Assembly: GCA_017454815.1 (NCBI GenBank) | Contig: JAFTCG010000073.1 | Coordinates: 1-63,241 of the forward strand | Reading direction: 5' to 3' | DNA length: 63,241 nucleotides | From: Clostridia bacterium | Lineage (GTDB): Bacteria > Bacillota > Clostridia > Oscillospirales > Acutalibacteraceae | Shown here: one piece after another, positions 28,734 to 49,225 of the stretch | Layout of the letters: each line of letters opens with the position of its first letter | Position numbering within the stretch: the stretch's first letter is position 1 | Notes under the pieces: model-generated | The model's input: the letters and a program-made list of their open reading frames with translations, nothing else | Told to the model about the DNA's origin: nothing | The model's database searches: none | Position numbers and translations under genes: made by a program

Positions 28734-31439
28734 TCAGAACGAGAAAACCACGTTATATGTTACGCCGTCGATAGTCACTTTTGCAGTGGCATTGCCCTTG
28801 GCGTAGAGCGTGCCGCTCTTGGAGATCGCCGCCACGCCGCTGACGTTCGAGAACGTGATCGCAGTGCCGTCCCAGAGAGCCGGATAGAAGTTGACCTGGG
28901 TTGCGGTTGCGTTGAACGTGATGGTTTTGCCGCTGACGGAAGCCGTCGCTCCGTTGTATTTCAGGAGATCGACGAGCGGGGTCTCGGCGGGAGTGAACGC
29001 GAAGACAACGGTGTAATTTGTGCCCTTGATGTTCGCCGTTGCGGAAGCGTTGGAGTAAGCATACAGTGATCCGCTCTTGGAGATCGAAGCGTTTTCAAGG
29101 CTGTTTGTGTCGAACGTAATCGCAGTTCCGTCGAGGAGTCTTGCGACCAACGAAGCCGACTTGGTGTTGTCGACCGGAGTGAGCGTGATCGTCGTGCCGC
29201 TGACAGCCGCAGTTGCGTTGGAAACTTTAAGGTTCTCGGCAAGCGGGATCTCCTGCTGCGGGAAATTCAGCACAACGGTGTATGCCGTGCCGTTGATCGT
29301 CACGGTAGCGGTCGAATATTTTGATGAATAGAGCGAGCCGCTCTTGGAGATTCTTGCGTCCTCGGAGAGGTTGGAGAAGGAGATCGCAGTTCCGTCAAGA
29401 AGTCTCGGGACAAGCGAAACAGACGTGGTTTCGTTGACGGGAGTGAGCGTAATCATTTTGTTGTTGACAGCGACCGTCGCATTGGTGAACTTGAGGTTGT
29501 CCTTGAGCTCAACGACCTGCTGCGGGAAATTCAAAACTATCGTGTAAACCGTTGAGCGAATTGTTGTCCTCGCTGTGGCATATTTTGTCGAATAGAGCGA
29601 GCCGCTCTTGGAGACCTTCGCATTTTCGGAAAGGTTTGTGAAGGAGATCGCTGTTCCGTCAAGAAGCCTCGGAACCATGGAGATCGCAGAAGATTCGCTG
29701 ACGGGGTTGAGCGTGATAGTTGTGCCGTTGACGGAAGCCGTTGCGTTCGTGATCCTGAGGTTGTCGAGGAGCACAAAATCCTCCTCCGGGAAGTCGAAAA
29801 TGACGTTGAAAGTTCCGGAGTTGGGTACGGTAACGCTGGCGGTGCCGTCGGATTTGGAGTAGAGAGTGCCGCTCTTGGAGACGCGCGCGCCGCCGGCGAC
29901 GGAATTAACCGTTATGAGCGTGCCGGCGAGAGTTCTCGCCGCAACAGTGACCGCCTGAGTTTCGTCAACGGGAGCGAGAGTGACGTTCATGCCGTTGACA
30001 ACGGGGTACTGGGAGTTGGTCATGCTGAGCAGTTCTGTGACGTCGAATTCGCCGAAGCTGACTTTGAGGACATAAGTTTTTGAGCCGATCGTCATGTTGA
30101 CCTGGCCGCCGGATCTCGCATACATCTGGCCGCTGTCGGTGACAACAACGCCGCCCTGGGGGTCGGAGAAGGCGATAACTTCGCCGTTCGTGGAATACTT
30201 ATAAACTTCAACCTTGACGGAATCTTCGTCAGCCTGAAGAGTGACCTTGTTTGTCGAGGGGTTATATGTTGCAAAACCGCCGGCAAAGTTAATGAGCGTG
30301 AAGACATCGGGGTTGACCCAATACTGCGCGGGGACTTCTTTTTCAAACAAGCCTCTGTAGACAAAAGCAGTGCTGTCGAAAGGATTGTTGCCGTATCTGT
30401 AAACGCCGAGGCAGCCGCCGTTCCTGGAATAGAATGTGCCGTCGTAGATCGCAAGAGTGGGTTGGCCGCCGTTACCGCCGCAGGACTCGATCACGACAGT
30501 GTCGCCGGTCTGCCTGTATTTGCTGTCATCGTGATTGAAGGACGCAAGCGCGCCGACAGCGCGGAAGGTTCCGCCGTTGATGGTTGTGTCGCCGCCCTTG
30601 AGATAGAGCGCATCGCCGCCCTGGAAAGTTCCGCCGTTAATGGTGAGCGTACCCGCCTGGGGCTGGAAGATCGCAACGCCCGTTTTGCTGACGGTTCTGA
30701 AAGTTCCGTCGTTGATCGTGACGGAGGTGCCGCCGAGGTTTTCGCCCGCATCGCCGGCGATGCAGGTATAGTTTGCGGTAAAAGTACCGCTGTTTATGGT
30801 GAGGCTTGTTCCGTTATCTCTGACGTAGATTTCGCCGGTTATGGTTGAATTTTCGATGACAGCCGCGCCGCCGTCAGTGACGGAAAGAGCTCTGTCGGAT
30901 GTGGCGATGGTAGTATTTTTTATGTTCGCATAGGCAATGCCCTGAACCTGGACAATGCCGCCGATAGTTCCGCTCTGGAGATAGAGCTTTGCGTTCGTGC
31001 CATCGTTGTAGCCGTCGACGGTTATACCGCCGTCGATATCGACGTAGCTTGTAACGGTTGAATTGGCGTTGACCCAAACGGCCTTCTTATCGGAGCCGGA
31101 GATCCTTCCGCCGCCGGCAGTGTCGCGCAAGGTCGCATAGCCGTAGAGGTCGAGCACCTGACCGGGAGCAGAGATCTCATAACCGTTGAGGTCGATCGTG
31201 ATGCCCTCGCCCCTGATGGTGACATAGGTCGAAAGAGAAATGTTGTAAAGCAGCTGAAGCGTTTCACCGTCCTGGATCGCCTTTGCGGCTTTATTGATGG
31301 TGGCGTATTCAACACCCGTTGTGACGTTTTTGACAAGATTGCCTGTGTATTCTTCCTCACCTTCGGCGAAAGCCGTAGCCGAAAAGACGCTCAAGCCGAT
31401 CACAAGAGCAAGGAGAACACTGATAATTTTCCTGCACAT
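28734..31439 (-). CDS. Secreted beta-helix protein with six C-terminal SKSG-type repeats (surface protein A)
   Basis: A 901-aa exported protein. Residues 1-25 are a signal peptide. Residues about 50-360 form a right-handed parallel beta-helix, seen as rungs of the TINGGTF / TVNDGTF type and ending with VIESCGGNGGQPTL. From 374 to the end run six repeats of 82-91 residues (374, 465, 555, 643, 731, 820). The repeat reads NAT-x-V-x-G-xx-ITLTPV, then RLLDGTAISFSN, then the hallmark ISKSGSLY, and closes with YTVVxNF. No LPXTG, SLH, dockerin or transmembrane anchor is present; the protein ends at the last strand of a repeat. GGAGG precedes the ATG. I do not recognise the repeat as a named domain. 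It shares design with the next two genes. Confidence 0.85.
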   Translation of the reverse strand: MCRKIISVLLALVIGLSVFSATAFAEGEEEYTGNLVKNVTTGVEYATINKAAKAIQDGETLQLLYNISLSTYVTIRGEGITIDLNGYEISAPGQVLDLYGYATLRDTAGGGRISGSDKKAVWVNANSTVTSYVDIDGGITVDGYNDGTNAKLYLQSGTIGGIVQVQGIAYANIKNTTIATSDRALSVTDGGAAVIENSTITGEIYVRDNGTSLTINSGTFTANYTCIAGDAGENLGGTSVTINDGTFRTVSKTGVAIFQPQAGTLTINGGTFQGGDALYLKGGDTTINGGTFRAVGALASFNHDDSKYRQTGDTVVIESCGGNGGQPTLAIYDGTFYSRNGGCLGVYRYGNNPFDSTAFVYRGLFEKEVPAQYWVNPDVFTLINFAGGFATYNPSTNKVTLQADEDSVKVEVYKYSTNGEVIAFSDPQGGVVVTDSGQMYARSGGQVNMTIGSKTYVLKVSFGEFDVTELLSMTNSQYPVVNGMNVTLAPVDETQAVTVAARTLAGTLITVNSVAGGARVSKSGTLYSKSDGTASVTVPNSGTFNVIFDFPEEDFVLLDNLRITNATASVNGTTITLNPVSESSAISMVPRLLDGTAISFTNLSENAKVSKSGSLYSTKYATARTTIRSTVYTIVLNFPQQVVELKDNLKFTNATVAVNNKMITLTPVNETTSVSLVPRLLDGTAISFSNLSEDARISKSGSLYSSKYSTATVTINGTAYTVVLNFPQQEIPLAENLKVSNATAAVSGTTITLTPVDNTKSASLVARLLDGTAITFDTNSLENASISKSGSLYAYSNASATANIKGTNYTVVFAFTPAETPLVDLLKYNGATASVSGKTITFNATATQVNFYPALWDGTAITFSNVSGVAAISKSGTLYAKGNATAKVTIDGVTYNVVFSF

Positions 31440-31606
31440 GACTTTTTACCTCCTGAAAATTTCTTTCTGAAAACTTCTGTTTGATAATTTCAATTCTATA
31501 TTCAAAATTGCAAAAGCAACTTGGTTTCGATCCTGATAAGAAACAAACGAATATTCGAGCGCGCTGAATTTTAAACACAATGCTCGAAGATAAATTCAGT
31601 ATTGAC

Positions 31607-31615
31607 ATTATAACA
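31607..31615 (-). promoter_or_regulatory. Extended -10 promoter of surface protein A
   Basis: TGTTATAAT on the minus strand; no good -35. It leaves a leader of about 160 nt (31440-31600) with no visible gene. Confidence 0.55.
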
Positions 31616-31708
31616 TAAGGATAATTTTCTTTTTTCTTTTTTAGCAATTTATTATTAATTTTGATTAACGCCGGGAGTGGCAAAACGAGGTCGCTGGGAT
31701 TTTTGGGC

Positions 31709-31744
31709 AAAAAGAAAACGGGAAGCAGGTTTCCCTGCCCCCCA
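31709..31744 (-). terminator. Terminator of surface protein B
   Basis: On the minus strand GGGGGGCAGG, GAAA loop, CCTGCTTCCC, then GTTTTCTTTTT. Confidence 0.7.
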
Positions 31745-31794
31745 TTTTTGTTTAGTTTACACTAACGATATTTTAGTCGATCGGGACAGATCAA

Positions 31795-34700
31795 TTAAAA
31801 TACGAAGTTAACTGTGTAGTCAACACCACCGATTGTTGCGACAGCTGTTGCGTTGCCCTTAGCATAGAGAGTACCGCTCTTAGTTGTCTTAGCAAGGCCG
31901 GAGATATCGCTGAATACTACAGCGGAGCCGTCCTTGAGTGTCGGATAGAAGTTAACCTGTGCTCCAGTTGCTGTCAAAGTAATTGTTGTGCCTTCAACTA
32001 CTACTGTTGCGCCTGTTGTCTTAAGGAGATCTGCTACCGGTGTCGGAGCTGCGGGCGTGAACGCAAATTCAACGTCATATGCAACGCCGCCGATTGTTGC
32101 TACTGCAGAAGCTACGCCCTTAGCATAGAGTGTGCCAGCTGCTGTTGTCTTAGCAAGACCAGCAATTTCGGAGAACTCTACTGCAGAGCCGTCCTTAAGT
32201 GAGGGATAGAAGTTAACCTGTTTGGACTCATCGAGAGGAGTAACAGTGATCTTCTGTCCGTCAACTGCTACGTCAGCGTTTGTAACCTTAAGAAGCTCAT
32301 CAAGAGGAGTAACAACTACTTCATAGTCGAATACTACTGTGTAGACATCGCCGTCGATTGTTGCTGTTGCTGTAGCGGGAGCATTAGCATAGAGGGAGTT
32401 ACCGCCGGAGATCTTGGCGTTGTTAAGGTTGGAGAATTCGATTACTGTTCCGTCTGTAAGTTTGTAAACGAGAGCAGCGGACTTAGTAGCGTCAACAGGA
32501 GTAAGGGTGATAACACCGTTTTCAACTGTTGCTGTAGCGTTCTGAACTCTGAGAGTTGATGCGTCAACAACTACGGGAGCTTCTTCGAAGTCAAATACTA
32601 CTGTGTATTCGCCTGAGTTGGGAACTAAGATTTCAGCAGTAGCATCAGCTACAGCATAGAGAGTAGAACCGCTCTTGGAAACTTTACAGCTACCTGATGC
32701 ATTCATGAATTCGATTGCTGTACCGGCTGTAGTAGCCTTGGAAATCTGAACCTGTTCAGCACTGTCGATAGCTGTAAGAGTAACAACATCGCCTTCAACT
32801 TCGATCGTTGCGTTTGTAACCTGAAGGAGGTCTTCAACGTCAAAGTGCGGGAATACGATTGTTACATTGTAGGTTTCGCCGTTGATTGTAGCAACGAAGG
32901 AACCGTTTGTTCTTGCATAAACCTGGTTACCTGTGGAGAGCTTTGCGCCGCCTTCAAGGTCAGAGAAAACTACAGTTGCGCCTTCTTCTGCAGAATAAAG
33001 ATATACTTCAACTTTTTCTGCGCCTTCGTTAGCTGTGATAGTAACGTTGTTTGTGCCTTCTTCGATAGCAGCTACGCCGCCGTTGATGTTAAGGAGAGCA
33101 AATGCATCAGCGTTTGCCCAGAATTTTGCAGGAACTGCTTTTTCGAACTGACCGCCATATACGAATGCTGTGCTTTCGAGTTCGTTACCTTCTGTGTAGT
33201 AGTAGCTGATGATATCGCTGTTTCTGGAGTAGAACTTACCGCCAGTGATCTTGAGAGACGGAGCTCCGCCCGGATATGCGCAGGATTCGATTACGAGAGT
33301 TTCACCAGTCTGGTTGTAACCGTTGCCTGTGTGTTCGAAATCAGCGTATGCGCCGACACCATAGAATTCGCCGCCGTTGATTTCAACGTAACCGGATTTC
33401 TGATAGATTGCGTTACCGCCGGTGATCTTACCACCGTTGATGGTGAGAGTACCAGACTGAGGATGGAAGATACCTACAGCGCCCTTGGGAGCTACGATTT
33501 CGCCGCCGTTGATGACGATTGTTGTGCCGCAGTCTGCTGCATTACCAACACCGGAAATCGGATAGGCAGGACCTGTGAGGTAACCGCCGTTAACTTCAAG
33601 GCTGGAACCGTTGCCTCTTACAACAACTGCACCGTCGCTTGTACCGCCGTTGATGACTGCGGATGCGCCTGCGCCGACTCTGATAGACTGAACGTCTGCG
33701 CTGTTGCGAGCGTCGCCGTTTGCATCAACGCGAGGAGCGATAACATCGCCGTCGTTGAGTTCGAAGGAAGAACCAGCGCCATAAGCCCAAACGTCACCGT
33801 TTACAAGGCCGCCGTCCATTGTAGCTGATCCGCCGTAAACGAGGACTGTACCGTTGATTGTACCGGCTTTGATTGTGAATTCGCCGCCAGTCTGAACATG
33901 AGCTGCATAACCGCTGCCTGCAGTAAGTGTAGCGCCGTCGAGAACGATTTCGCTGCCTTCATAAACAAGAGCCATACCGTTGACTTCGCCGGATTTAAGT
34001 GTAAGTGTTCCGCCGTTTTCAGCGTCTACTGCATAAGCTGCGTTAACAGAACCGCCACCGACAGAGTCGATGATTGTTACGTCAGCGCCTACTGCGCAGA
34101 GACCCCAGTTGCCTGTTGCAGTGTAGGATTTACCTGCAAGGTCAACAGTAACGTCAGTCTTGAATTCAACATAGTCAGCGTCAATGTCGTTCATGAAAAC
34201 GAGTGTGTCGCCATCTGCAGCTGCTGCACCTGCTTCTTCAAGTGTGTCATAGTAAGCACCTGTTGTTGTGTTTGCTACGAGGGGAGCGCCGAAGCCTTCA
34301 GCTGAATCGTCGCTGAATGTTCCGCCGTATACGAAAACTGTTGCGGGTGTGCTTTCACCATAAGTGTAAACACCGATTGCTTTTGCTTCGCTTGATTCGA
34401 ATTCGCCGTCATAGATCTTAACCATCGGGGGCTGTCCGTTCGGATAACCGCAGGAATCGATTACGATAGCGTCGCCTGTTGAGTTGAAGCCGTTGCCATA
34501 GTAGCTGTATTCTTTAGCTTCGCCTGTACCTACGAATGTACCGCCGTTGATCGTTGTAACGCCGGACTTGATGTAGAGAGCGTCAGAACCCTCGAAATAA
34601 CCGCCGTTGATGGTGAGAGTACCACCCTGGGGATGATAGATAGCTGCGCCTGTTTCGGATGTGGCTGTGAATGTACCGTCGTTGATGGTGATTTCAGTAT

Positions 34701-35331
34701 TTTTCTTAGTACCATTGCCTACGATACAGTAAGAATCGGATGTGAATTCACCGCCGTTGACTGTAAGAACACAGTTTGCTACGGTAAATACGTCGCCGTT
34801 GATTTCGCCGCCGTTGACCGTGCAAGAGGGTTTCCTGCTGGAATAGCTTGAGTTAAGATAGAGAGCGCCTTCTGCACCTGTGTTAACTACGCCGTCGTTA
34901 ACAACAACTGTACCAGCAGATGAGAAGTTAGCAACAGCTCTGACACCTGCTATTGTACCGCCGTCAATTACTACTGTAGCGCCGGTCTGTGCCTGAAGAG
35001 CAGCATAGTCGGAATCGATCTTACCGCCGCCGACAGAGTCAGTGATTGTGAGATTACCGGTTTTGCTTGTAGCAATGAGACCGGCAACTCCTGTAGCCGT
35101 ACATGTGATTGTGTGACCTGCAAGGTCAACTGTGATGTCCTTGGATGTCTGTTTGTTACCATAGATTTCAACATCTTCGGTAAGAACGATGACATCGCCG
35201 TTCGCCGCTGTTTTGTAATCATTTTCAAATGATTCAGCAGTGGCTTCGATTTCTGCAGCCGAAGCTGCTACCGTAAATACGCTGAGTGCAAGAGTGAGCG
35301 CAAGTACGATACTGAGAATTTTCTTCGCCAT
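31795..35331 (-). CDS. Secreted double beta-helix protein with five C-terminal SKSG-type repeats (surface protein B)
   Basis: A 1178-aa exported protein, paralogous to its downstream neighbour. Signal peptide 1-25. Two successive beta-helix blocks follow (about 30-365 and 365-735), each opening with DITVDLAGHTITC- or VTVDLAGKSYTA-type strands and carrying rungs such as TLTINGGYFEG. Both contain a SCGYPNGQP or SCAYPGGAP turn like that of protein A. Five beta repeats occupy 738-1178 (starts 738, 830, 922, 1008, 1097). No wall anchor is visible. Codons favour GCT, GTT, ACT and CTT far more than neighbouring genes, as in strongly expressed proteins. The ATG at 35331 has AGGAGG 7 nt upstream; a start 12 codons earlier is rejected. 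Confidence 0.86.
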   Translation of the reverse strand: MAKKILSIVLALTLALSVFTVAASAAEIEATAESFENDYKTAANGDVIVLTEDVEIYGNKQTSKDITVDLAGHTITCTATGVAGLIATSKTGNLTITDSVGGGKIDSDYAALQAQTGATVVIDGGTIAGVRAVANFSSAGTVVVNDGVVNTGAEGALYLNSSYSSRKPSCTVNGGEINGDVFTVANCVLTVNGGEFTSDSYCIVGNGTKKNTEITINDGTFTATSETGAAIYHPQGGTLTINGGYFEGSDALYIKSGVTTINGGTFVGTGEAKEYSYYGNGFNSTGDAIVIDSCGYPNGQPPMVKIYDGEFESSEAKAIGVYTYGESTPATVFVYGGTFSDDSAEGFGAPLVANTTTGAYYDTLEEAGAAAADGDTLVFMNDIDADYVEFKTDVTVDLAGKSYTATGNWGLCAVGADVTIIDSVGGGSVNAAYAVDAENGGTLTLKSGEVNGMALVYEGSEIVLDGATLTAGSGYAAHVQTGGEFTIKAGTINGTVLVYGGSATMDGGLVNGDVWAYGAGSSFELNDGDVIAPRVDANGDARNSADVQSIRVGAGASAVINGGTSDGAVVVRGNGSSLEVNGGYLTGPAYPISGVGNAADCGTTIVINGGEIVAPKGAVGIFHPQSGTLTINGGKITGGNAIYQKSGYVEINGGEFYGVGAYADFEHTGNGYNQTGETLVIESCAYPGGAPSLKITGGKFYSRNSDIISYYYTEGNELESTAFVYGGQFEKAVPAKFWANADAFALLNINGGVAAIEEGTNNVTITANEGAEKVEVYLYSAEEGATVVFSDLEGGAKLSTGNQVYARTNGSFVATINGETYNVTIVFPHFDVEDLLQVTNATIEVEGDVVTLTAIDSAEQVQISKATTAGTAIEFMNASGSCKVSKSGSTLYAVADATAEILVPNSGEYTVVFDFEEAPVVVDASTLRVQNATATVENGVITLTPVDATKSAALVYKLTDGTVIEFSNLNNAKISGGNSLYANAPATATATIDGDVYTVVFDYEVVVTPLDELLKVTNADVAVDGQKITVTPLDESKQVNFYPSLKDGSAVEFSEIAGLAKTTAAGTLYAKGVASAVATIGGVAYDVEFAFTPAAPTPVADLLKTTGATVVVEGTTITLTATGAQVNFYPTLKDGSAVVFSDISGLAKTTKSGTLYAKGNATAVATIGGVDYTVNFVF

Positions 35332-35513
35332 TTTTTGTCCTCCTAAACAAAAATTTTTTATAGTCAAAATTGCCTACGGCAATAATGCCTCGACAATAAT
35401 GCCCGAAAATAAAATTAAAAAAATTGTTTAAGCTGCCCGCACAAGCAGGCAACCTGAAAAAGTTTAGCTTAGTTCAAATAAATTCGACGCGAAACACAGA
35501 TTAACTTTTCAAG

Positions 35514-35547
35514 GTACACTAAAGCGGCAGACTAAGTCCGCTTGTAC
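35514..35547 (-). promoter_or_regulatory. Stem-loop at the 5' end of the surface protein B transcript
   Basis: GTAC and AAGCGG pair with CCGCTT and GTAC around a small loop. The inferred transcription start (near 35545) would place this hairpin as the first nucleotides of the mRNA, ahead of a leader of about 210 nt. Such 5'-terminal hairpins are known to stabilise abundant mRNAs. Confidence 0.5.
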
Positions 35548-35551
35548 TTGT

Positions 35552-35560
35552 ATTATATCA
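35552..35560 (-). promoter_or_regulatory. Extended -10 promoter of surface protein B
   Basis: TGATATAAT on the minus strand without a clear -35 box. Confidence 0.6.
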
Positions 35561-35797
35561 CATTGAATGTTGTTTTATTTCTTTTTCAGAAAAATAGACA
35601 CTTTTTTCAAAGAAAAATCAGGTTTTTTCCCGCATTTTTTGATACGTTTGCACAAAACCGGAGTGCAACACAATATATAGCGATAAGCGCACCACATATT
35701 GTATCGCTTTGATGAAAAAGCTTTGCATGATCTTTACCCGCAAATATACGAAAACTACCCGTAAAACACACGCGGCAGGGAAGCCCGGTACTGCTAT

Positions 35798-35848
35798 GCC
35801 GCGTTGGTGTTTATCGAATATTTTACCAAAGCGCGCGAGCCGGAAGTG
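35798..35848. repeat. Dispersed intergenic repeat R2, copy 2
   Basis: Begins GCCGCGTTGGTGTTTATC and ends GCGCGAGCCGGAAGT, a diverged copy of 10159-10208. The interval 35561-36032 otherwise holds only the terminator below and GGGGCGGATACTATCC; no gene is seen. Confidence 0.6.
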
Positions 35849-35875
35849 TGATTGTTGGGGCGGATACTATCCTCA

Positions 35876-35914
35876 AACGAAAAGGAACAGGGCGACAAAA
35901 GCCCTGCTCCTTTG
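35876..35914 (-). terminator. Terminator of surface protein C
   Basis: On the minus strand AAGGAGCAGGGC and GCCCTGTTCCTT pair with one mismatch, then TTCGTTT. It lies about 120 nt past the stop codon. Confidence 0.7.
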
Positions 35915-36032
35915 GATTAGTTGTTTAGTTGTTTGGTTGTTTCGTTTTACTTTCGCAGGCTTTGACCAAGCGACGACAAATATCATCATTCATCGTCGGA
36001 TCGGCGAAGCGAAAACTGCGATCCGGTTTTTA

Positions 36033-39000
36033 TCAGGTTGTGGGATTTACAACAACGAAGTTGATCACGTAGTCGTTTCCGTCGAAGTTGAGCGAGATGT
36101 CAGCGCCGGCAGCCTGATAACGAAGTACATACTGGTTGGTCTGGCTCTGGACATACGCGCTGTCGCTCGTAACCGTAACGGTCTCGCCCTCAACTGTCTT
36201 CGGAATCGTGACGAAGGTCTTCGCGATCACGTTCCTGTCAAGAGTTACGGTGATGACGTCTCCGTCAAGCGACAAATCGGTTGCGTTGGTGAACGGAATT
36301 ACCTTGATGACGCTTCTTGTTGCAATGTTTGTGAAGCGGATGATGAAGGTTACGTCTGTTCCGTCGTCAGCGTTGACCACGAACGATGCTACGCCGCGCG
36401 CCGAGTACGGAAGATTTGCAGAGTTGATCTGATAGTACTGGCTGGTTTCGGTGATGAAGCTGTAATCGCCCGTATTGATGCTCAGGTTGGAGGACCTTGC
36501 ATCCTTGTAGACCCTTGCGATAGTGCTCGAAGTGCTCGTTGTGAAGATCTGCTTTTCGGCATCATAGGAGTATGCGCCGTCAACCAGACGAAGAGTTACG
36601 AACTCAGGTCTGAATTCCTTGACGAATTCTGTCGAATAGATGACGTTGTAGGTTCTGTCGCCGCTGATCGTGATCTTGGAAGTTCCGCCGACCTTGGTAT
36701 AATACTTCGTGCCGGTCTTGTAGAGCTGCAAGCCTTCGACGTCGAAGATTTCGATGGGCTCATTGTTCGTCAAAGTTTTGTAGATACTTACGAGAGTGTT
36801 TCCGGGGATGATCTTGACTGTGATCGTATCGCCATCCTTGGAAGCGTATGCGTTCTGGAGCTTAAGCAGGCTTACGATCGTCTGGAGAGCGTCGATCTCA
36901 TCGTTGACCGCCATGATGTAGTAGTTGATGAGGTTGGCGTCGTCTTCCTCGTCGAGGTCTTTGTCGATATCGTTGAGGACTGCCGTTACTCCGCTGAAGT
37001 CATAGTAATCGTCTGCCACAAGGTTGTTGGCTTTCGCAACTACGGTTTCAAGGGCATCCAAGCCTGTTGCTTCAAGCGGCGTTACAACGAAGAGTACGTT
37101 GAATTCTTTGCCGTTCGCAAGGCGGATCTTGGCGGATGTGTTCTGTTTTACGGAGAACCTGATGTTATCGCTGACGGGGATGAGTTTTCCTGTCCTGAGA
37201 TAGGTGATCGGGTCGCCGTTGATCATCCTCTTGTATACGGTCATGTAGTTCTGAGTCGAAGTCGGGCTCATGGTGAAGGTGATCGTATCGCCGTCCTTAG
37301 TTACGATCGCGTTACCCGAACGCTGGATCGTATCCTGGATGATGACGATGTTCTTGAGAGCGTTGTTGATCGCTGTTGCGAAAGCGTCAACCCTCTTCTG
37401 ATCTTTTTCATGGAGGCCTGTTTCAACCGCGTTGACCGCAGTCATGAGAGCTGTGTAAGTTGCGTCGTCGTAGACGTCGTCGCCCTTGATGGCGGCCGCT
37501 TTTGCAAGAGCTGCGTTGACAGCCGTGTAATCGGCAACGTCCAAAGCAGGATCTTTCATCGCGAAGACGACTGTGAACTGCCTTTCATCGGCAAGAGTGA
37601 TCATTACGGTACCGTTGACCTTGGAATAGCAGGATCCGCTCTTGGAGATGCTGGGGCCGTCGTTGTTGCTGAACGTTACTCTGTCGCCGCAGACGAGAGT
37701 CGGATACATGGTGATCTGAGTCTGATCCTGGGCGGGAGTCAAGGTGATGGTGGTACCTTCGATCGAAGCTGTGCCGCCGACAAGCCTGATCTGAGACGCA
37801 ACGGTAAGACCGTTCATGTAGCCGTTGATCGTGGAAGTATAGGCGTCAACCTGATCCTGATGCGCAGAGCTGAGAGTCAGGTCAACAGTCTCGATATAAT
37901 CCATAAGGGTTGCATAAGTCGTTGTGTTGTAAACCGTTACGGGGTCGATGGCCTCCGCAGCCGCGATCGCAGCGTTGAGTTCGGTATAATCGGCAAGTCC
38001 GAGATCGGTCGCGGAGATGATCTCGCCGCAGACTGTACATCTTACTACGGATTTATCAACGCCGTCGATATTTTCAACAGCAGCGTCGCCGGGAGTATGC
38101 GCGACCGTTGCTATGTCATCTGTATAAGTTTCGCCGCAGGTGGAGCAGGTGTAAGTCATAACGCCTGTCTGGGTACAGGTTGCGGGAGTTGTTACAGTGC
38201 CTTCGTCCCAAGAGTGACCGAGAGCTTCTGTTTCATCAGCAACGTAGCTGTCTCCGCATCCGGAGCAGGTATAAGTTGTATATCCGCCTTCAGTACATGT
38301 CGGGTTGGTTACAACCGCTTCGTAGTTATGACCTGTTGCTTCGACAGTTTCGGTCGTTGTTGCGCCGCAGACTGTACATGTATAAGTTTTAACGCCTGTT
38401 TCCGTGCAGGAAGGAGGAGTTGTGATCTCGCCGTCGTCCCAAGCGTGGTCGGTCGTCGCGATCGTTTCGCTCTCTATAATCTCGCCGCAGATTGTACAAT
38501 AGATGGCTTTAAGACCTTCCGCGCTGCATGTTGCGGGAGTTACTACCGTCCATTCTGCCGCAGGAGTATGACCGAGAGCTTCGGTCTCGTCAGCAACGTA
38601 GCTGTCGCCGCATCCGGAGCAAGTATAAGTTGTATAACCGCCTTCGGTACATGTCGGGTTGGTTACAACCGCTTCGTAGTTATGGCCTGTCGCTTCGGTC
38701 TCGTCGCCTGTGTAGGTGTCGCCGCAGCGAGAGCAGGTATAAGTTGTATACCCGCCTTCAGTACATGTAGGATTGGTTACAACCGCTTCGTAGTTATGGC
38801 CGAGAGCCGCTACTGTTTCCTGAGCGGTGAGAACGGCATCACATACCGAGCAGTGAGAGCCTTCCGTAAGACCAGTTGTGGTACAAGTTGCCGCTACAGC
38901 AGCGTCGATCTCGACCGTATGGTTAACGGAAAGGGTAAGCTGAGCCGCGCTCAAATTAAGAGTCTGGCCGGTTGCGATACAGGTGGAAGTCGGGCCCATC

Positions 39001-39809
39001 TTCTGGCCTACGCTTCTTGCGGCGTAGTTAAGACCGCCGGCGAAGGAAGAAGTCTTGTTGAAGTCGGAGCTCATGAAGATTCCGCCCTGAGTTCCGAACT
39101 GAGCATCGTTGAGGACTCTGAAAGTCATCGTTGCAACTGTACCGTTGGCAACAACGGGATCGGAAACCTTTGAATTAAGGGCAAAGCCGACGTTGAGGGC
39201 TGTGTACTGAGCCTTCATTTCGTTCGTGTTCCAATACGAGGTGTTGCTGTTCCTCTGGGCAAAGATCTTTGCAGTGTTGGTCACGCTGCCTGTCATATTG
39301 TAGGCGCTGAGAACGCCCGTTGCGTGGTTGACAACGGTGTCGTTGATCGTTGTACCGCCGACAAGCTCAAACATCGTTGAGTCGAATATGATAACGGCAC
39401 CGGCAGAGATAACGCCGTAGTTTGTTGTAAGCCCAAACGTTACGGTCACTGTGTCGCCCGGATGAAGCGGATCAGACGTGCCGGTCAGCGAAAACTGGGC
39501 TACAGCCTGGCTCTCATCGGCAACAAGGTCTGCAACAGCAGACTGGAGCTCGCTGAGATAACCGTCAACCGTGGACTGCTGCGCCGCCGGAAGATCGTAA
39601 TCAATAGCGTCAAGGACTGCCGCTACCGGGGCATAGCTTTCAGATGAATAAATCCCTGCATTGTTATCGATGGGGACATATTTTTCGATATAGTCAGTCA
39701 GCGAGGAATAATCCGCAAGATCACCCTCCGCAAACGCTACAACGGAAAAGATGTTGAGCACCATCAACAGTGTCAATGCCAAACTGATGAGTTTTTTAGT
39801 TTTTGACAT
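36033..39809 (-). CDS. Secreted modular protein: cohesin-like domain, CxxCG repeats, FIVAR-like spacers and SKSG-type repeats (surface protein C)
   Basis: A 1258-aa exported protein. Signal peptide 1-28. A helical FIVAR-like segment spans 30-97. Residues 103-295 look like a cohesin-type beta-sandwich (PGDTVTVTFGLTTNYGVISAG, then IIFDSTMFELV). Residues 300-600 hold seven to eight Cys repeats of about 38 residues of the form PTCTEGGYTTYTCSxCG, ending in GH. The remainder alternates FIVAR-like helices (605-670, 756-822, 912-980) with beta repeats (674-752, 825-910, 980-1062) and ends in two diverged beta repeats. SISKSGSCYSK at 720-730 links it to proteins A and B. No wall anchor is seen. AAAGGAGGAG precedes the ATG. 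A consensus promoter with a perfect inverted repeat lies upstream. Confidence 0.85.
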   Translation of the reverse strand: MSKTKKLISLALTLLMVLNIFSVVAFAEGDLADYSSLTDYIEKYVPIDNNAGIYSSESYAPVAAVLDAIDYDLPAAQQSTVDGYLSELQSAVADLVADESQAVAQFSLTGTSDPLHPGDTVTVTFGLTTNYGVISAGAVIIFDSTMFELVGGTTINDTVVNHATGVLSAYNMTGSVTNTAKIFAQRNSNTSYWNTNEMKAQYTALNVGFALNSKVSDPVVANGTVATMTFRVLNDAQFGTQGGIFMSSDFNKTSSFAGGLNYAARSVGQKMGPTSTCIATGQTLNLSAAQLTLSVNHTVEIDAAVAATCTTTGLTEGSHCSVCDAVLTAQETVAALGHNYEAVVTNPTCTEGGYTTYTCSRCGDTYTGDETEATGHNYEAVVTNPTCTEGGYTTYTCSGCGDSYVADETEALGHTPAAEWTVVTPATCSAEGLKAIYCTICGEIIESETIATTDHAWDDGEITTPPSCTETGVKTYTCTVCGATTTETVEATGHNYEAVVTNPTCTEGGYTTYTCSGCGDSYVADETEALGHSWDEGTVTTPATCTQTGVMTYTCSTCGETYTDDIATVAHTPGDAAVENIDGVDKSVVRCTVCGEIISATDLGLADYTELNAAIAAAEAIDPVTVYNTTTYATLMDYIETVDLTLSSAHQDQVDAYTSTINGYMNGLTVASQIRLVGGTASIEGTTITLTPAQDQTQITMYPTLVCGDRVTFSNNDGPSISKSGSCYSKVNGTVMITLADERQFTVVFAMKDPALDVADYTAVNAALAKAAAIKGDDVYDDATYTALMTAVNAVETGLHEKDQKRVDAFATAINNALKNIVIIQDTIQRSGNAIVTKDGDTITFTMSPTSTQNYMTVYKRMINGDPITYLRTGKLIPVSDNIRFSVKQNTSAKIRLANGKEFNVLFVVTPLEATGLDALETVVAKANNLVADDYYDFSGVTAVLNDIDKDLDEEDDANLINYYIMAVNDEIDALQTIVSLLKLQNAYASKDGDTITVKIIPGNTLVSIYKTLTNNEPIEIFDVEGLQLYKTGTKYYTKVGGTSKITISGDRTYNVIYSTEFVKEFRPEFVTLRLVDGAYSYDAEKQIFTTSTSSTIARVYKDARSSNLSINTGDYSFITETSQYYQINSANLPYSARGVASFVVNADDGTDVTFIIRFTNIATRSVIKVIPFTNATDLSLDGDVITVTLDRNVIAKTFVTIPKTVEGETVTVTSDSAYVQSQTNQYVLRYQAAGADISLNFDGNDYVINFVVVNPTT

Positions 39810-39875: not shown

Positions 39876-39907
39876 CTCCTACTATTGTAATAATACCATA
39901 GTAGGAG
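39876..39907. promoter_or_regulatory. Perfect inverted-repeat operator
   Basis: CTCCTACTAT and ATAGTAGGAG, 10-bp perfect arms with a 12-bp centre, bracket the -10 box of the surface protein C promoter. The shape is that of a dimeric repressor site. I found no second copy in the window. Confidence 0.7.
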
Positions 39908-39918
39908 CAAGATGTCAA
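39890..39918 (-). promoter_or_regulatory. Promoter of surface protein C
   Basis: TTGACA, 17 bp, TATTAT on the minus strand; leader of about 70 nt. Confidence 0.8.
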
Positions 39919-39993: not shown

Positions 39994-41607
39994 TTATTGC
40001 TCCTGATCCTCCGATTCGGAGTCACCCGAGGCGGCAACAGCCTTCTTTTTTTTCTTCGTCACAAGATCTTTTATGAAATCCACGAACTCCGCCCTCTGGT
40101 CTCCGACGATCAGGAAGGTGCCCGCGGCAAAGATTACGAGCTTATAAGCAAAGTTGACAAAGAACATCGTCGAGAACAGGGCGATCTGCTCACCGGTCGT
40201 CGCGATAACGTACCAGTTGATCGGCAGAATGCCCGCCGCGCAAGCGACGCCGCATACGAGCACGCACATAATCATTTCTCTGAGCGGATACATAAGCAGC
40301 TTATGCCTGCGGCAGATTATGATCGAGAGCGCCGCTGTCAGGATCCTCGAGAGCAGAAAAGAGATCGCCGAGCCCCAGATCCCAAGGTCGAACACCCACC
40401 AGACGAGTATTCCCGTCACAATAAAGTTGAAAAGAGTGCCCGAGCCGGAGCAGATGAACATTTTCTTGTTTGTCCTCACGTCGTACATGATCGCAAGGGA
40501 GTGGTTGTAGTAAACGGCTTTCACGGCGTGAGTCATCGCAAAAAACGGGATGATCTTCCACGCTTCATAGTACGCAGGGCTCCTCGCGACGACGAGCACA
40601 AGCTCCTGCGAAAAAAGCCCGACGCCCAGACATACGATGACGATCAGCCTCATCGCGATCATGGTGAAATCGATTATTTCGCGCTTGCCTTCATCGCCGT
40701 GCTTCATTTTTTCGTTGAACCAAGGTCTCTGCGCATTGTTTATCGCAGACTGGCAAACGTCGATCGCAGAGCTGAACTGCATCGCCACCGAGTGAATGGC
40801 AGTAAAGATCGTAAGATTCCCGGAGGCAAAGTCAACTTTGTTGAGAAAAAGCTTCGGGATGTACGACGCCATGTTGTTCGCCATCGAATGAGGAACGAGG
40901 GGAATGGAGTAGCGCAAGGATATTTTTAGCATTTCCCTGTCTATGCAGATCTTCATTTCGTTTCGCTTGATAAGCTCAAAAACGCCGATGATCGAAAAAG
41001 TCGCATAAGAAGCAACAAGCGAGATCATCATTCCGTTGAGACCGCCGAGGGAAAAGTTTCCGATTCTGACATCTTTGCAGAAAACGAGAAAAACAATGTT
41101 CAGAAATACATGGAGCAGTGCAAATCCCATGCCGTTCCTTGCAAACCTTGTACCCTCCTGCATCGACTGCAGAAAGCCCTGGTACATCGTATAGATCGCA
41201 TAAAACACCAGCGCCGCAAGCGTCATCGCAACGTTCGGGAGAAACGGGATCCCGTCGAACAGCAACCCGCAAAGCGGAACGCGGAACAAGGTGAAAACGA
41301 CCACGACAATTCCTCCGAGGAGGACGACAAAAGTCATTATCGTTCCAAAGAAGCGTTTTACTTTTTCAACGTCGTCTTTGAAATCGCTGTAAAATCTTAT
41401 GGCGGCATTGTTCAGCGATAGGCTGATAAAAAACACCGCGAGAAATATAAATTGTGAAAGCACGCCGTAATGGCCGTATTCCGTGCCCGAAATATACTTG
41501 ATGTTCGTATAAAGCGGGAGCATAATCATTCCGAGAGCTTTCGTCAGAAAACTTATCACAGAATAGATCACGGAGTTTTTCGCGACCTTTTTTCTGCCGT
41601 CATTCAT
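39994..41607 (-). CDS. wzx: Wzx-type polysaccharide flippase
   Basis: A 537-aa membrane protein of the MOP/PST exporter superfamily. About 12-14 hydrophobic helices follow the typical N-terminus (KNSVIYSVISFLTKALGMIMLPLYT). The last 25 residues are charged (KKKKKAVAASGDSESEDQEQ). It would move lipid-linked repeat units across the membrane for the locus. Its start overlaps the stop of the glycosyltransferase gene by 4 nt. It is the last gene of the polysaccharide operon; no clean terminator follows. Confidence 0.9.
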   Translation of the reverse strand: MNDGRKKVAKNSVIYSVISFLTKALGMIMLPLYTNIKYISGTEYGHYGVLSQFIFLAVFFISLSLNNAAIRFYSDFKDDVEKVKRFFGTIMTFVVLLGGIVVVVFTLFRVPLCGLLFDGIPFLPNVAMTLAALVFYAIYTMYQGFLQSMQEGTRFARNGMGFALLHVFLNIVFLVFCKDVRIGNFSLGGLNGMMISLVASYATFSIIGVFELIKRNEMKICIDREMLKISLRYSIPLVPHSMANNMASYIPKLFLNKVDFASGNLTIFTAIHSVAMQFSSAIDVCQSAINNAQRPWFNEKMKHGDEGKREIIDFTMIAMRLIVIVCLGVGLFSQELVLVVARSPAYYEAWKIIPFFAMTHAVKAVYYNHSLAIMYDVRTNKKMFICSGSGTLFNFIVTGILVWWVFDLGIWGSAISFLLSRILTAALSIIICRRHKLLMYPLREMIMCVLVCGVACAAGILPINWYVIATTGEQIALFSTMFFVNFAYKLVIFAAGTFLIVGDQRAEFVDFIKDLVTKKKKKAVAASGDSESEDQEQ

Positions 41608-42878
41608 CTTGCTTTTACCTCATCGTTTTGGGAAATGATTTTTTCGTAAACTCCAAAAAGACAGTTTTTGCTTTTTTCGGGAGAGTTTCTTTCAAAGGCT
41701 TCGGCGCGAGCGTTTTCCGAAAGCCTCAGCGCCAGCTCATCGTCGTCAAAAATCTTCTTTATCATGAAAGCCAGCGTCTGCATCTCGCCTTTTTCGTACA
41801 TCAACCCCGAACGGTCGTGGTGGAGGTAAGTTGAAGTGCCCCCGACGAACGACGCAACGCAAGGCACGCCGAGCATCATCGCTTCGCCCAGAGAATTTGG
41901 CGAATTTTCGCAAAGCGAATACTGGCAGAAAATGTGGCTCGTTTTCATGTAATCCGCCATCTCCGCCGCGCTCAATGAGCCGACAAATTTCACGTTTTGC
42001 TCAAGGGAATATTTGGAGATAAGACCTCTGATATATTTTTCATATGCAGTGATCTTTTTCTTTGAAGAGTTGTATTTATAGTCGCCCGGCACGATCAGCT
42101 CGACGTCGGGGTATGAACCTTTAAGCAGCGCAAGCGCTTCGAGAGCCACGTGGAGACCTTTCGCGGAATCTCTGCCCTGGATGCCGAAGATCCTGTGACG
42201 TTTTACGTCTTCAAGCTTCCACTTGTTTTCTTCCTTATAGAAATCGTCCCTGAACGCTCTGGGGACGTAGAAATACTCTGCGCCCGGGTTGACGTACCAG
42301 GAGTTTGCGTGATCCCAATCCGTTCTTCCGATGACGTAATCTGCCTTTTTAAGTATTTCGTGAGACGATCTGCCCCTCATCCTCATGAGGCGCTGTTTCT
42401 CGGCAAGCCCCTTGAAGTGGGTGAGGTCGTAGAACGATCTCCTATGCCTGAAGCCCTTGGGCATGGCGCAAAAATACACCTTTGACAGTTCCGCAGGGAT
42501 GCCCTGGAGCGTGGCGATGACCTTTGCGTCGTGCCTGCACATCAGCAGATCTCTGCCGACGGTGAATTCTATTCCCTGTATGTCGATTATATCCGGTTTG
42601 AACTCGTCGAGGATCTCCTGAAACCGAGCGATAAGCTGCTTTTGCGGACGCCAAGTTACGATACGCGATTTTATGCTGAAGCTTTTTACGTTCCCGACTT
42701 CGTCAACGCTGCCGTCGTTTGCAGGGTTTACGCTCACGATGGCGGCTTTATCGACCTTGTCCGATTTCTGGATGTTGTTCACGAGCATTCCTATCCAGCC
42801 GCCGGACGATTTCGACTTGTTGAAATACCCCTCGGAATCGAGCTTGACGGGCATCGTTGTCAAAACAAGAATTTTCAT
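41604..42878 (-). CDS. Glycosyltransferase, GT4 type
   Basis: A 424-aa GT-B fold enzyme. The C-terminal half has the GT4 signature: FGIQGRDSAKGLHVALEAL, then the donor-binding CQYSLCENSPNSLGEAMMLGVPCVAS with the paired acidic residues, and later NARAEAFERNSPEK. The N-terminal half starts KILVLTTMP and carries the acceptor side. It is the only glycosyltransferase in the locus. Sugar donor and linkage cannot be inferred. AAAGGAG precedes the ATG; the start overlaps the wzy stop. Confidence 0.9.
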   Translation of the reverse strand: MKILVLTTMPVKLDSEGYFNKSKSSGGWIGMLVNNIQKSDKVDKAAIVSVNPANDGSVDEVGNVKSFSIKSRIVTWRPQKQLIARFQEILDEFKPDIIDIQGIEFTVGRDLLMCRHDAKVIATLQGIPAELSKVYFCAMPKGFRHRRSFYDLTHFKGLAEKQRLMRMRGRSSHEILKKADYVIGRTDWDHANSWYVNPGAEYFYVPRAFRDDFYKEENKWKLEDVKRHRIFGIQGRDSAKGLHVALEALALLKGSYPDVELIVPGDYKYNSSKKKITAYEKYIRGLISKYSLEQNVKFVGSLSAAEMADYMKTSHIFCQYSLCENSPNSLGEAMMLGVPCVASFVGGTSTYLHHDRSGLMYEKGEMQTLAFMIKKIFDDDELALRLSENARAEAFERNSPEKSKNCLFGVYEKIISQNDEVKAR

Positions 42879-44338
42879 TATTGTTCTCCTTTGACTTCAG
42901 AGCGGTTCGGAGCCCTCTGATAAGTTCTTTGGCGGGGGTTCAGCGGTTTGACTTTCACGCCGCGTTTTTTGTCGAGGTGGTTTTCAAAATAATACATCGA
43001 ACAAACGCCGATGAAGAATTCATTCGTCGGCATGGCTCCCAGGATCGTGTGGGACGACATTCCTCCGACGAAGCAAAGCACGAACGGAAGCGCGCCCAAA
43101 ATCGAAAAAGTAAAGCCAAGCCTTTTGAAGCTCTCTGCGATCTTCTTAAAAAAGATGACGTATATCACGCAGACCATGGCGAGCCCGACCAATCCGTTTC
43201 CGTAAAGAACTTCGATAAACATATTGTGCGCAACAACGCCGCCTCCGGGCGACGGGAGCGAGTTGTCGGAGCCGAAGAATAAATATTTAAGGCTGCCGAA
43301 TATCGTCGTAAGGTACGCCTTCGCCAACTCTGTTCTTCCGCCGGTAACGTCGTCGTGGCGGGGGTTGATGAATCGGTCGATGATTGTATAAAACAAGTCG
43401 TAGAGATTGGTCTTCCTGCCGAAAATCAGGAACAGCACGACCGCTACAGAAGCAATGATGAAAAACAGACCTGTGTTCGTCCGCGTTTGGGTGTTGGTGA
43501 ATCCCAGAAACGCGGCCCACAAAATGATGATGATGGAAAGAATCACGAACGTCCTCGACTGGGTCAGCAGTCCGACGTAAGCCATCGGGACGATCATGAT
43601 CGCCATAACACGTTTCAAAAGAACCGTGTTCTCCGACAGAATTATCAGGACTGATGCGGCAATAGACGACGCAACGTAAATTCCGAGAACGTTTGCGCCG
43701 CTGTCGATGCTGATCGAAAACCTTCCGAGCGAATTCCCCGTGAAAGAAAAGATGAGCGAGATCAAAACCGTCAGGGTTATTCCCATGGACATATAAAAGA
43801 CAATTTGGTTGAATTTTATCCTCGCCTCGTCCTTTGTCTGACAGACTTTGAAAACGTCCATCAGCATGATGAAGGAAAAGAAGAGCTTCACCGAGGTCGA
43901 AAACAAGATAAAGTTGACCGTACTGAAATTTACAAAAAAGAACCTCAGGCTGTAAATGGTGAACAAAGTCAGGATGCTGAGCATCTGGGTGTCCATTCTG
44001 ACTTTTTTATACCTCTTTTGCAAAAAATAAACTCTCGCAATGTATACGATGGTTATAACGGGCAAAAGCGGGATGTTATTGCCGACGTTCAGCAGTCGGT
44101 TTGAAGCGGCAAGAACGATGTAGACGATCGCGATCTGGTCGGTTTCGATAACAAGCGAACCGACAAGCATTACGCCGATGGCGATATATGCAAAAACAGA
44201 CGACACGTTTTCGCCCATCTGGAACAGCGTAACGGTCAACGCGATAAAGACGAACGTTTTGAGGTTGAGTGAACCGAACGTTTCGTCGTTTTTAAACCCG
44301 GTCGAAAGCCGACCTTTTGATTTAGCGATAGTTGCCAT
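42878..44338 (-). CDS. wzy: O-antigen ligase/Wzy-type polymerase
   Basis: A 486-aa protein with about 11 membrane helices and a large extracellular loop after the eighth (FINPRHDDVTGGRTELAKAYL), where Wzy_C family members carry their conserved Arg/Gly. It should polymerise exported repeat units. A GGGVVAHNMFIEVLYGNG segment follows, in the position of the family's conserved H-N residues. GCAGGTAACGG precedes the ATG. Located between the epimerase (105 nt) and the glycosyltransferase. Confidence 0.88.
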   Translation of the reverse strand: MATIAKSKGRLSTGFKNDETFGSLNLKTFVFIALTVTLFQMGENVSSVFAYIAIGVMLVGSLVIETDQIAIVYIVLAASNRLLNVGNNIPLLPVITIVYIARVYFLQKRYKKVRMDTQMLSILTLFTIYSLRFFFVNFSTVNFILFSTSVKLFFSFIMLMDVFKVCQTKDEARIKFNQIVFYMSMGITLTVLISLIFSFTGNSLGRFSISIDSGANVLGIYVASSIAASVLIILSENTVLLKRVMAIMIVPMAYVGLLTQSRTFVILSIIIILWAAFLGFTNTQTRTNTGLFFIIASVAVVLFLIFGRKTNLYDLFYTIIDRFINPRHDDVTGGRTELAKAYLTTIFGSLKYLFFGSDNSLPSPGGGVVAHNMFIEVLYGNGLVGLAMVCVIYVIFFKKIAESFKRLGFTFSILGALPFVLCFVGGMSSHTILGAMPTNEFFIGVCSMYYFENHLDKKRGVKVKPLNPRQRTYQRAPNRSEVKGEQ

Positions 44339-44443
44339 ACCGTTACCTGCATTCTTCAGCCGCTGAGCGTTCGTGGCTGAGCGTTAAATAATTTCAGACA
44401 ATCCGACAGCCCGACAGACGGAACATCGGGCATGGGATCGGGA

Positions 44444-45427
44444 TCATTTTAAGTTTTCCTTATACCATTCGACCGCGTCGACAATACCCTGACTAAACGA
44501 CCAGTCGGGATCGTAACCGAGGTTTTCTCTGGCGTCGGAGATGTCAGCCTTTGAATGCTTCAGATCGCCGGGGCGGTCGGGGCCGTAGTTTGGCTTTATG
44601 TCCTTGCCGAGCAGATCGCAAAGGATGTTGTAAACGTCGATGAGCGGCACCTGTCCGCCGAAGGCAATGTTGTAAGCTCTGCCGGTCGCTTCCTTGGGAG
44701 CCAGCATAGCCTTGAGGTTTGCTTCGATCACGTTTTCGATGTAAGTGAAATCCCTCGACTGCAAGCCGTCGCCGTTGATCGTCGGAGCTTCATCGTTGAT
44801 GAGCGCCTTGACGAATTTCGGAATAACCGCGGCATAGTAGCCGTGGGGATCCTGCCTCCTGCCGAACACGTTGAAATATCTGAAGCCTATCGTTTCAAGC
44901 CCGTAAATGAGCGAATAAAGCTCTGCATAAAACTCGCAGACGTATTTTGTCAGGGCATAAGGGGAAATCCTTGTGCCGTCTTTTTCTTTCCCCTCTTTTG
45001 CGGGGAGAGTAATACCTTTTCCGTAGACCGAAGAGCTCGAGGCATAGACAAACCTCCTGACGCCTTTCTGCCTTGCGGCTTCGAGCATATTGAGCGTTCC
45101 CCGGATATTTATCTCCTCATAAAGCAACGGCATTTCGATGCTCCTCGGGACGCTTCCCCACGCCGCTTGGTGAGAAACGTAGTCGACTCCTTCGCAAGCT
45201 TTTTCGCAGGTTTCGTAGTCGCGGATGTCGCCTTCGATGAGCTCAAAATCCGGGTTGGAGAGAAACGGCTCCACGTTCTCTCTCTTGCCGGTCGAAAAGT
45301 TGTCGAGGCAACGCACCTTGAAGCCCATTTTCAATATCGCTTCGCAGATGTTTGAGCCGATAAACCCTGCGCCGCCTGTTACAAGGAAAACGCTTCCCTG
45401 CGGAAACACAATATCTTTATATCCCAT
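44444..45427 (-). CDS. UDP-N-acetylhexosamine/hexuronate C4-epimerase (WbpP/TviC-like SDR)
   Basis: A 327-aa extended SDR. NAD-binding TGGAGFIGS lies at 17-25 and the catalytic Tyr-Lys in SPYALTKYV near residue 152; SSSSVYG supplies the Ser. The pattern FSTGKRENVEPF after the first fold resembles WbpP/TviC rather than GalE. Next to a UDP-sugar dehydrogenase it would give UDP-GalNAcA- or UDP-GlcNAc-derived acids by C4 inversion. Exact specificity is inferred. AGAGGAAG lies upstream of the ATG. Confidence 0.85.
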   Translation of the reverse strand: MGYKDIVFPQGSVFLVTGGAGFIGSNICEAILKMGFKVRCLDNFSTGKRENVEPFLSNPDFELIEGDIRDYETCEKACEGVDYVSHQAAWGSVPRSIEMPLLYEEINIRGTLNMLEAARQKGVRRFVYASSSSVYGKGITLPAKEGKEKDGTRISPYALTKYVCEFYAELYSLIYGLETIGFRYFNVFGRRQDPHGYYAAVIPKFVKALINDEAPTINGDGLQSRDFTYIENVIEANLKAMLAPKEATGRAYNIAFGGQVPLIDVYNILCDLLGKDIKPNYGPDRPGDLKHSKADISDARENLGYDPDWSFSQGIVDAVEWYKENLK

Positions 45428-45451
45428 TTTAAATTGTTCTTCCTCTCAGAA

Positions 45452-46771: not shown

Positions 46772-46807
46772 TTTCGAGCTCCTTAAAATATGTGGCTGCA
46801 CAAGTTC

Positions 46808-47488
46808 TTACAGGGACGAATACTCGTCGGATCTTCCGGCGTTGAAAAAGCGAGGATCGCTGATTTTTTTCACTATCTCGCCGAACGCCAGATAGTCGCT
46901 CTCGCTGTGCGCGTCGGAGGCGACGTAAGAGATCATTCCGCTTTCCAGAAGCTTCTTGGCGCATTTCCTCGTCTTGTTCATAAAGCCGGGCTCTTCAAGG
47001 CTCAGCCCGTCGAGCTGAAGCCTGCACCCGAGCTCAACGCTTCGGACGATCCTTTCTATGTTCGTCTGAACCTGGGGGTATCTTTCGGGATGCGCGATGA
47101 TGATCTGCGCTCCCTCGCGCTGAAGATTCATGACAATGCTCTCCCAATTCGCGGGGAAACCGACAGTGCTCTTGAATTCGAGCAGGATAGTGTTCGTCCC
47201 CTCGGTGCAAAACTTCAGAGCGCCTTCTATGCCGTCGTCGTTGAGAGCGTAGCAGTTGTATTCATACCCCTGAAAAAGCTCTATGCCGATTTTTTTTGCC
47301 TCTGCGCTGACAGCGGAAAAAGCGTCCTTCAGCTTGTCCTTGTCGTACCCCGCCCGCATAACGTGCGGCGTCGCTATAATCTTGTCAAAACCTATCTCTT
47401 TTGCGGCGCGAAGCATTTTGACGGACTCCTCAATGCTTTGAGAGCCGTCGTCCACGCCGCAGAGAACATGGCTGTGGATATCTATCAT
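46808..47488 (-). CDS. cpsB: Tyrosine-protein phosphatase of the CpsB/YwqE PHP family
   Basis: A 226-aa metal-dependent phosphatase that dephosphorylates the CpsD kinase. PHP metal motifs: DIHSHVLCGVDDGS at the start, TPHV, LLEFK, IIAHPERYP and the closing SDAHSES. Together with CpsC and CpsD it sets capsule chain length and export. Gap to the kinase gene is 27 nt. It uses Mn-type PHP chemistry, unrelated to low-molecular-weight Cys phosphatases. Confidence 0.93.
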   Translation of the reverse strand: MIDIHSHVLCGVDDGSQSIEESVKMLRAAKEIGFDKIIATPHVMRAGYDKDKLKDAFSAVSAEAKKIGIELFQGYEYNCYALNDDGIEGALKFCTEGTNTILLEFKSTVGFPANWESIVMNLQREGAQIIIAHPERYPQVQTNIERIVRSVELGCRLQLDGLSLEEPGFMNKTRKCAKKLLESGMISYVASDAHSESDYLAFGEIVKKISDPRFFNAGRSDEYSSL

Positions 47489-47515
47489 ATCTTTCTCCGA
47501 AGGCGATCCGGCCGG

Positions 47516-48418: not shown

Positions 48419-48438
48419 CTGTTCTCCCGTCCTTTCAG

Positions 48439-49185: not shown

Positions 49186-49225
49186 AGGTCTTCTCCTTTT
49201 TTGAAAATACTGGTATAACAGACAT

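Follow-up and report, generated by a model that had tools for sequence, protein, structure and literature searches.

Besides the Big_2 domain, three described systems come closest to the locus reported here. SLH and CWB2 repeats occur in sets of roughly three at one terminus of secreted proteins whose heads vary widely, and a review gives the proposal that the CWB2 proteins of C. difficile bind polysaccharide II (PSII; PMC5817068), whose locus has been compared with capsule loci of the Wzx/Wzy kind (PMC5065235). Periscope Proteins, for which Rib and FIVAR are named as stalk repeats, are defined by highly identical tandem copies (PMC9704523). Anchoring scaffoldins, either of the Acetivibrio SLH type or like ScaE of Ruminococcus flavefaciens, combine a signal peptide, a cohesin and a C-terminal attachment region (PMC4081043, PMC11557425, PMC12484212), and a recent scheme requires SLH, LPxTG, LysM, transmembrane or Cu-amine-oxidase-like parts for an anchoring scaffoldin (PMC11557425). 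We analyzed a contig of 63,241 nucleotides (JAFTCG010000073.1 of assembly GCA_017454815.1; henceforth the window) from a Clostridia bacterium of the Acutalibacteraceae, in which three consecutive genes on the minus strand encode large proteins, A, B and C, each with a signal-peptide-like start and several copies of a repeat of about 84 residues. Tandem copies of this repeat form the C-terminal tail of these and other proteins in the genus, and protein C, which carries a cohesin, lies next to a conserved polysaccharide locus. Our favored, tentative reading is that the tail acts as a non-covalent surface anchor and that C is an anchoring scaffoldin with neither SLH domains nor a sortase signal.

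The three proteins lie on the minus strand, as do the features of this region described below. Protein A (28734-31439; 901 residues) joins one beta-helix-like head to a six-copy tail (28737-30314; copies at 30051-30314, 29787-30050, 29523-29780, 29259-29516, 28992-29252 and 28737-28985) that reaches the last residue. Protein B (31795-35331; 1178 residues from an ATG, 1190 in the longest open reading frame, which opens at TTG) has two such heads, homologous to that of A, and a five-copy tail (31798-33114; copies at 32848-33114, 32584-32847, 32320-32574, 32056-32313 and 31798-32046). Protein C (36033-39809; 1258 residues) runs from a FIVAR-like helix unit through the cohesin and a zinc-ribbon-like array into a tail region (36048-37811) of five copies (37554-37811, 37080-37337, 36627-36887, 36327-36602 and 36048-36320, the fourth of them divergent), with FIVAR-like spacers between the first three. 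AGGAGG-type ribosome sites stand upstream of all three ATGs. Proteins A and B align at 38.8% identity over 856 columns, with head and tail both shared and the head doubled in B, and are by this comparison paralogues, homologous throughout. Since they have a common head, the front ends are of two kinds, not three as the original prediction had it. The beta-helix heads and the FIVAR-like spacers match no Pfam model and are assigned from reading the sequence.

A single repeat in 16 copies had been claimed for the three proteins, and alignment and profile searches confirm it. The 16 segments (6 + 5 + 5) align with a mean column identity of 38%, and a profile built from them recovers each of the 16 within the window, with E-values of 5e-32 to 6e-17, along with 28 further matches at E <= 0.01 (the weakest at 8e-4) spread over 12 additional contigs of this genome (G000; 1.7 Mb, 96 contigs, 79.7% complete), giving a total of 44. 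As these 28 had no part in building the profile, their number is far beyond chance. Copy 4 of C has diverged strongly (21.8 bits), and another profile detects four of the five copies of C. Copies within one protein share 20-65% identity in A, 29-67% in B and 20-31% in C, and Tandem Repeats Finder (score >= 50) reports no tandem DNA array covering the repeats; the arrays are thus not recent expansions. Six contigs of the genome (C10, C11, C27, C18, C69 and C89) have repeat matches at their ends, as is expected of a multi-copy sequence, and the stretches of about 0.8-1.2 kb that lead up to the break in C10, C11 and C27 share 85-87% DNA identity. Among four-copy tails, one protein each from the relatives G001, G003, G004 and G006, copies at the same position have a mean identity of 80% (n = 24, minimum 56) and copies at different positions one of 32% (n = 72, maximum 39). 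The copies in these tails are position-specific.

The repeat occurs in all seven analyzed genomes of the genus by a 60-copy profile, which contained copies from five of the six relatives; the sixth, G002, was not included and matches at E 7.5e-19. With the same profile at E <= 1e-4, matches were found in 4 of 300 genomes of the family, all of the same genus, and in 3 of 394 genomes of the order, namely the genome under study and two apparently unrelated ones whose matches are chance-like. The 16-copy profile at E <= 0.001 matches 8 of 60 genomes, six of the genus (this one included) and two with chance-like matches. A divergent copy is present in three named records, which are metagenome-assembled genomes (MAGs) from the rectum of roe deer and water deer and one Oscillospiraceae MAG. 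In profile-profile comparison the copies of the G000 genome match divergent four-copy tails at 89-95% probability and a single-copy group at 99%, and those two match each other at only 11-12%. The proposal of a modular surface domain therefore has good support, and the domain extends well past the three genes into the rest of the genome and the genus.

No Pfam family fits the repeat, whether whole proteins or the 16 or 60 single copies are searched, so that at this level the predicted lack of a named family stands. Formally a match above the Pfam cut-off does exist, to LptD_N (PF03968) at residues 700-754 of A (27.8 bits vs 20.4), and taken at face value it would refute the original prediction by that prediction's own criterion. 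The match spans the junction of repeats 4 and 5 and does not recur in the 15 other repeat proteins scanned, and we therefore treat it as spurious; nor is LptD_N among the 25 of 50 families listed for the 60 copies. Big_2 (PF02368) appears below cut-off for 1 of 16 copies (E 0.0099) and 1 of 60 (E 0.0095), and is not listed at E <= 1 for whole proteins A, B and C. In the literature no description of the repeat family was found, by searches that could not name the repeat directly.

A compact recurring fold had been anticipated, and AlphaFold predicts one. The AlphaFold2 model of copies 5 and 6 of A is compact and all-beta with a predicted local distance difference test (pLDDT) score of 96.1, as is a second AlphaFold model of the repeat (pLDDT 91). 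The fold itself looks ordinary rather than new, the nearest structures in Foldseek being mostly Ig-like, with none naming a family. A single divergent copy has as its best Foldseek match the Rib domain 6s5w (E 5e-3, probability 0.99, TM-score 0.40). We read the genus-specific repeat as a probably Ig-like beta sandwich of about 84 residues. A distant likeness to Big_2 is suggested by the end of the copies (A.ISKSGTLYAKGNATAKVTIDG..Y.V.F), which is similar to the Big_2 end, and by hhalign, in which the repeat profile of the genome scores 25.0 when compared with a Big_2 profile built for this genus, with 59 columns in register and a probability of 42.7%. This score exceeds those of all 300 column-shuffled decoys (maximum 17.0), and control profiles of the zinc ribbon (40 rows), cohesin (7) and FIVAR (3) reach at most 13.2. 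Against Big_2 the divergent tails reach 24.3 in an alignment of 36 columns, and the score is weaker for the pooled 60-copy profile (18.8) and the single-copy group (14.8). By profile similarity the repeat may be distantly Big_2-like, although Pfam Big_2 matches it below cut-off only and the genus also has ordinary Big_2 domains. Ordinary Ig-like domains are found in the window itself, where a 396-residue protein (146-1336) has Big_3 and Big_2 above the Pfam cut-off.

We examined 40 repeat-bearing frames in the seven genomes, 35 of them with a visible stop. In 27 of these 35 the last copy lies within 4 residues of the protein end. Nine of the 27 are short, two being fragments (31 and 50 residues) and the other seven pieces at contig ends (35 to 161 residues); with short frames removed, 18 of 26 end at most 4 residues past the last copy, among them A, B, C and five other proteins of the same genome. 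The eight exceptions comprise the protein on contig C35, which ends in leucine-rich repeats (LRRs), and seven single-copy proteins with further domains and a hydrophobic aromatic end (12 to 14 of 15 residues), as if tandem tail and hydrophobic segment replaced each other. These seven form by eye about two architecture groups and hence are not independent. Single-copy proteins of the relatives (L113, L116, L120, L121, L124, L127 and L129) have a common aromatic hydrophobic end, xQWI or WWQW, which is perhaps a separate membrane-attachment tail. The frames of 50 and 31 residues at L114 and L128 (G001:C18 and G006:C1) lie behind full tail proteins, code for no more than the last part of a copy and may be remnants of a further one.

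No recognized attachment signal was seen in the tails. An LPXTG-type motif ([LN]P.T[GAN]) is absent from the last 60 residues of all repeat frames examined, and none of the 27 tail-terminal frames has a strongly hydrophobic end (at most 11 of 15 residues). Neither SLH (PF00395) nor CWB2 (PF04122) matches A, B or C; SLH has no match in the 79.7%-complete genome, and CWB2 none in the seven genomes of the genus. The heads in front of tandem tails are varied, with BspA-type LRR_5 domains in four proteins of the G000 genome, the beta-helices of A and B, an InlB-like head on contig C70 (the latter two kinds again by eye), Flg_new (Pfam) at L128 and a cohesin at L126 (E 2.9e-8), a protein of G006 that fits the cohesin and four tail copies into 706 residues. 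The recurrence of the same repeat string behind many different secreted heads suggests that it is probably the part that holds them at the surface.

The head of C, overlooked in the original prediction, is a cohesin by homology. It covers residues ~98-290 (38940-39518) and is assigned through its orthologues and L126, C itself having no Pfam cohesin match. All five orthologues of C exceed the Pfam Cohesin cut-off (E 1.2e-7 to 1.8e-9) and share 35-37% identity with the head of C, and a stretch of this head is 28% identical to the cohesin head of L126 in a single comparison (E 1e-14). Behind it lies the zinc-ribbon-like array (residues ~296-600; 38010-38924), with eight CxxC motifs in units of about 38 residues, two of which are 87% identical in DNA (38578-38801), and no clean Pfam family; the orthologues L153 and L154 have a longer array, in which their contigs break off. 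Possible partners of the cohesin are encoded throughout the genus, as Dockerin_1 occurs in all seven genomes, with 19 matches in G000 and 6 to 26 in the six relatives. Of the 19, 16 were located to frames, and the 10 scanned are seven BD-FAE esterases, two papain-type proteases and one frame with FIVAR only. On contig G000:C37 (6659-19125, L163) five dockerin-bearing BD-FAE-type esterases stand in a row, followed by a sixth dockerin frame, and at the end of this contig lies an LRR protein whose tail has four copies. Contigs G000:C26 and G000:C12 (L133, L165) encode papain-family proteases that combine a lectin-like domain with a dockerin at the C-terminus.

The gene for C is tied to a polysaccharide cluster upstream (39994-49254), which encodes a flippase (Polysacc_synt), a glycosyltransferase, a Wzy_C-like protein (below cut-off), a TviC-like epimerase, a TviB-like dehydrogenase, CpsB, a CpsD-like kinase and Wzz. 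Each of the seven genomes contains a single match to the flippase. In G001, G003, G004 and G006 the order is Wzz, CpsD, CpsB, dehydrogenase, epimerase, Wzy, glycosyltransferase, Wzx, two genes and the C orthologue, and the contig of G002 starts inside the dehydrogenase and keeps this order through to the C orthologue. The orthologue thus lies two genes behind the flippase in all five relatives whose contigs reach that far, that of G005 ending earlier. The two sugar genes lie side by side (44444-46801) and score 480 (TviB-like) and 278 bits (TviC-like), below the equivalog cut-offs of 592 and 760; from their likeness to the Vi pathway, the polymer may hold an amino-uronic acid. Between the cluster and C, a promoter-like site (39890-39918, TTGACA-17-TATTAT, with a TG ahead of the second hexamer) is a consensus match only, the region having 13 such sites vs 10.8 expected by chance.

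How these findings fit together under the reading that we favor can be set out briefly. Secreted proteins that differ in their heads end in chains of three to six copies. Judged from sequence, cleavage of the signal peptide would leave a protein that has neither a hydrophobic segment nor a sortase signal behind it and whose last residue is at or beside the end of the last strand. The tail would hold the protein non-covalently at the cell envelope, a role that SLH, CWB2 or a sortase signal has elsewhere; its ligand would be an envelope polymer. The cohesin of C, held out by the zinc-ribbon array and fixed by the tail, would bind the dockerins of its own genome and display the esterases and proteases that bear them, and A and B would use a tail of this kind to present their beta-helices. 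C shares with anchoring scaffoldins the signal peptide, the cohesin, a C-terminal candidate attachment region and a genome with dockerin proteins; it differs in having no known wall-attachment module, with no SLH, LPXTG or hydrophobic C-terminal end seen, and the scheme cited above would seem to class it as a single-cohesin protein of unknown function (PMC11557425). The tails share with SLH and CWB2 repeats the terminal position and the many heads, and C adjoins a surface-polysaccharide locus; they differ in their lack of a sequence match and in their predicted all-beta fold. A more specific version, which we regard as unlikely, would have the tail bind the glycan made by the adjacent Wzx/Wzy cluster, with C as the conserved anchoring scaffoldin of a cellulosome-like esterase/protease complex held by Ig-like repeats instead of SLH or sortase, and with a socket that A, B and the LRR proteins share.

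Several observations weigh against an anchoring tail. Sortase genes are present in all seven genomes of the genus and SLH in four, so that other anchoring routes exist. The protein on G000:C35 runs on for 385 residues past its repeats to its LRR end, and that on G000:C26 has three copies near its N-terminus, its own stop lying outside the seen sequence. The contigs of all five C orthologues stop inside the zinc-ribbon array, leaving their tails outside the seen sequence, and an orthologous C-type tail is found only in G005, on a separate contig (42% identity over 652 residues); moreover, two genes separate flippase and C in the relatives and none in the window. Conserved Lys/Arg positions occur, yet the acidity of the tails as a whole (isoelectric points 5.2, 4.1 and 4.4) speaks against their binding an acidic glycan simply by charge. 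In appearance the fold is the one most common among spacers, and no feature of it points to a ligand site. As the main rival reading, the Ig-like copies might be rigid spacers like Rib or Big that push the head outward, with attachment left to something else. The mostly Ig-like structural matches, the Rib domain as nearest to the divergent copy and the standing of Rib and FIVAR as Periscope stalk repeats agree with such a stalk, and both kinds of protein are secreted with tandem Ig-like domains, although the structural match is weak. Such a stalk would, however, itself form the free C-terminal end, neither an LPXTG-type match nor another module having been seen beyond it, and its copies are diverged (20-67% identity in A, B and C) and position-specific, with no tandem DNA array over the tails, unlike the highly identical copies of Periscope Proteins. 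As it is hard to see what purpose a spacer would serve at a free end, we think it more likely that the tail attaches the protein, like triple SLH or CWB2 repeats, and we consider the passive stalk somewhat improbable.

What the tail holds on to could also differ. It might bind plant polysaccharide, mucin glycan or released exopolysaccharide and the proteins would then tether cells to a substrate or matrix and not be held at the wall, which we think quite improbable. We give least weight to a surface lattice, in which tails would associate into an S-layer-like coat displaying the heads: the tail is common to many proteins of one genome, Foldseek lists the S-layer domains of SbsC (4uj7, E 1.5e-3) and Sap (8s80, E 3.1e-2), and there is a weak sequence match to an S-layer chain of the Protein Data Bank (E 0.35, not significant), but these S-layer rows are scattered among many unrelated Ig-like ones, and no dominant S-layer protein is known here, though none was searched for. 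We consider this very unlikely.

If the tail were merely a stalk, the find would amount to a divergent Ig-like repeat that has expanded specifically in this genus. For cohesin-based complexes, the identification of new anchoring mechanisms is counted as part of a key challenge in a 2025 review (PMC12484212), and the attachment of simple cellulosomes is described as incompletely understood in a 2024 survey (PMC11557425). With one tail module, many heads and a polysaccharide cluster nearby, this locus is a concrete candidate for how a cohesin complex may be attached.
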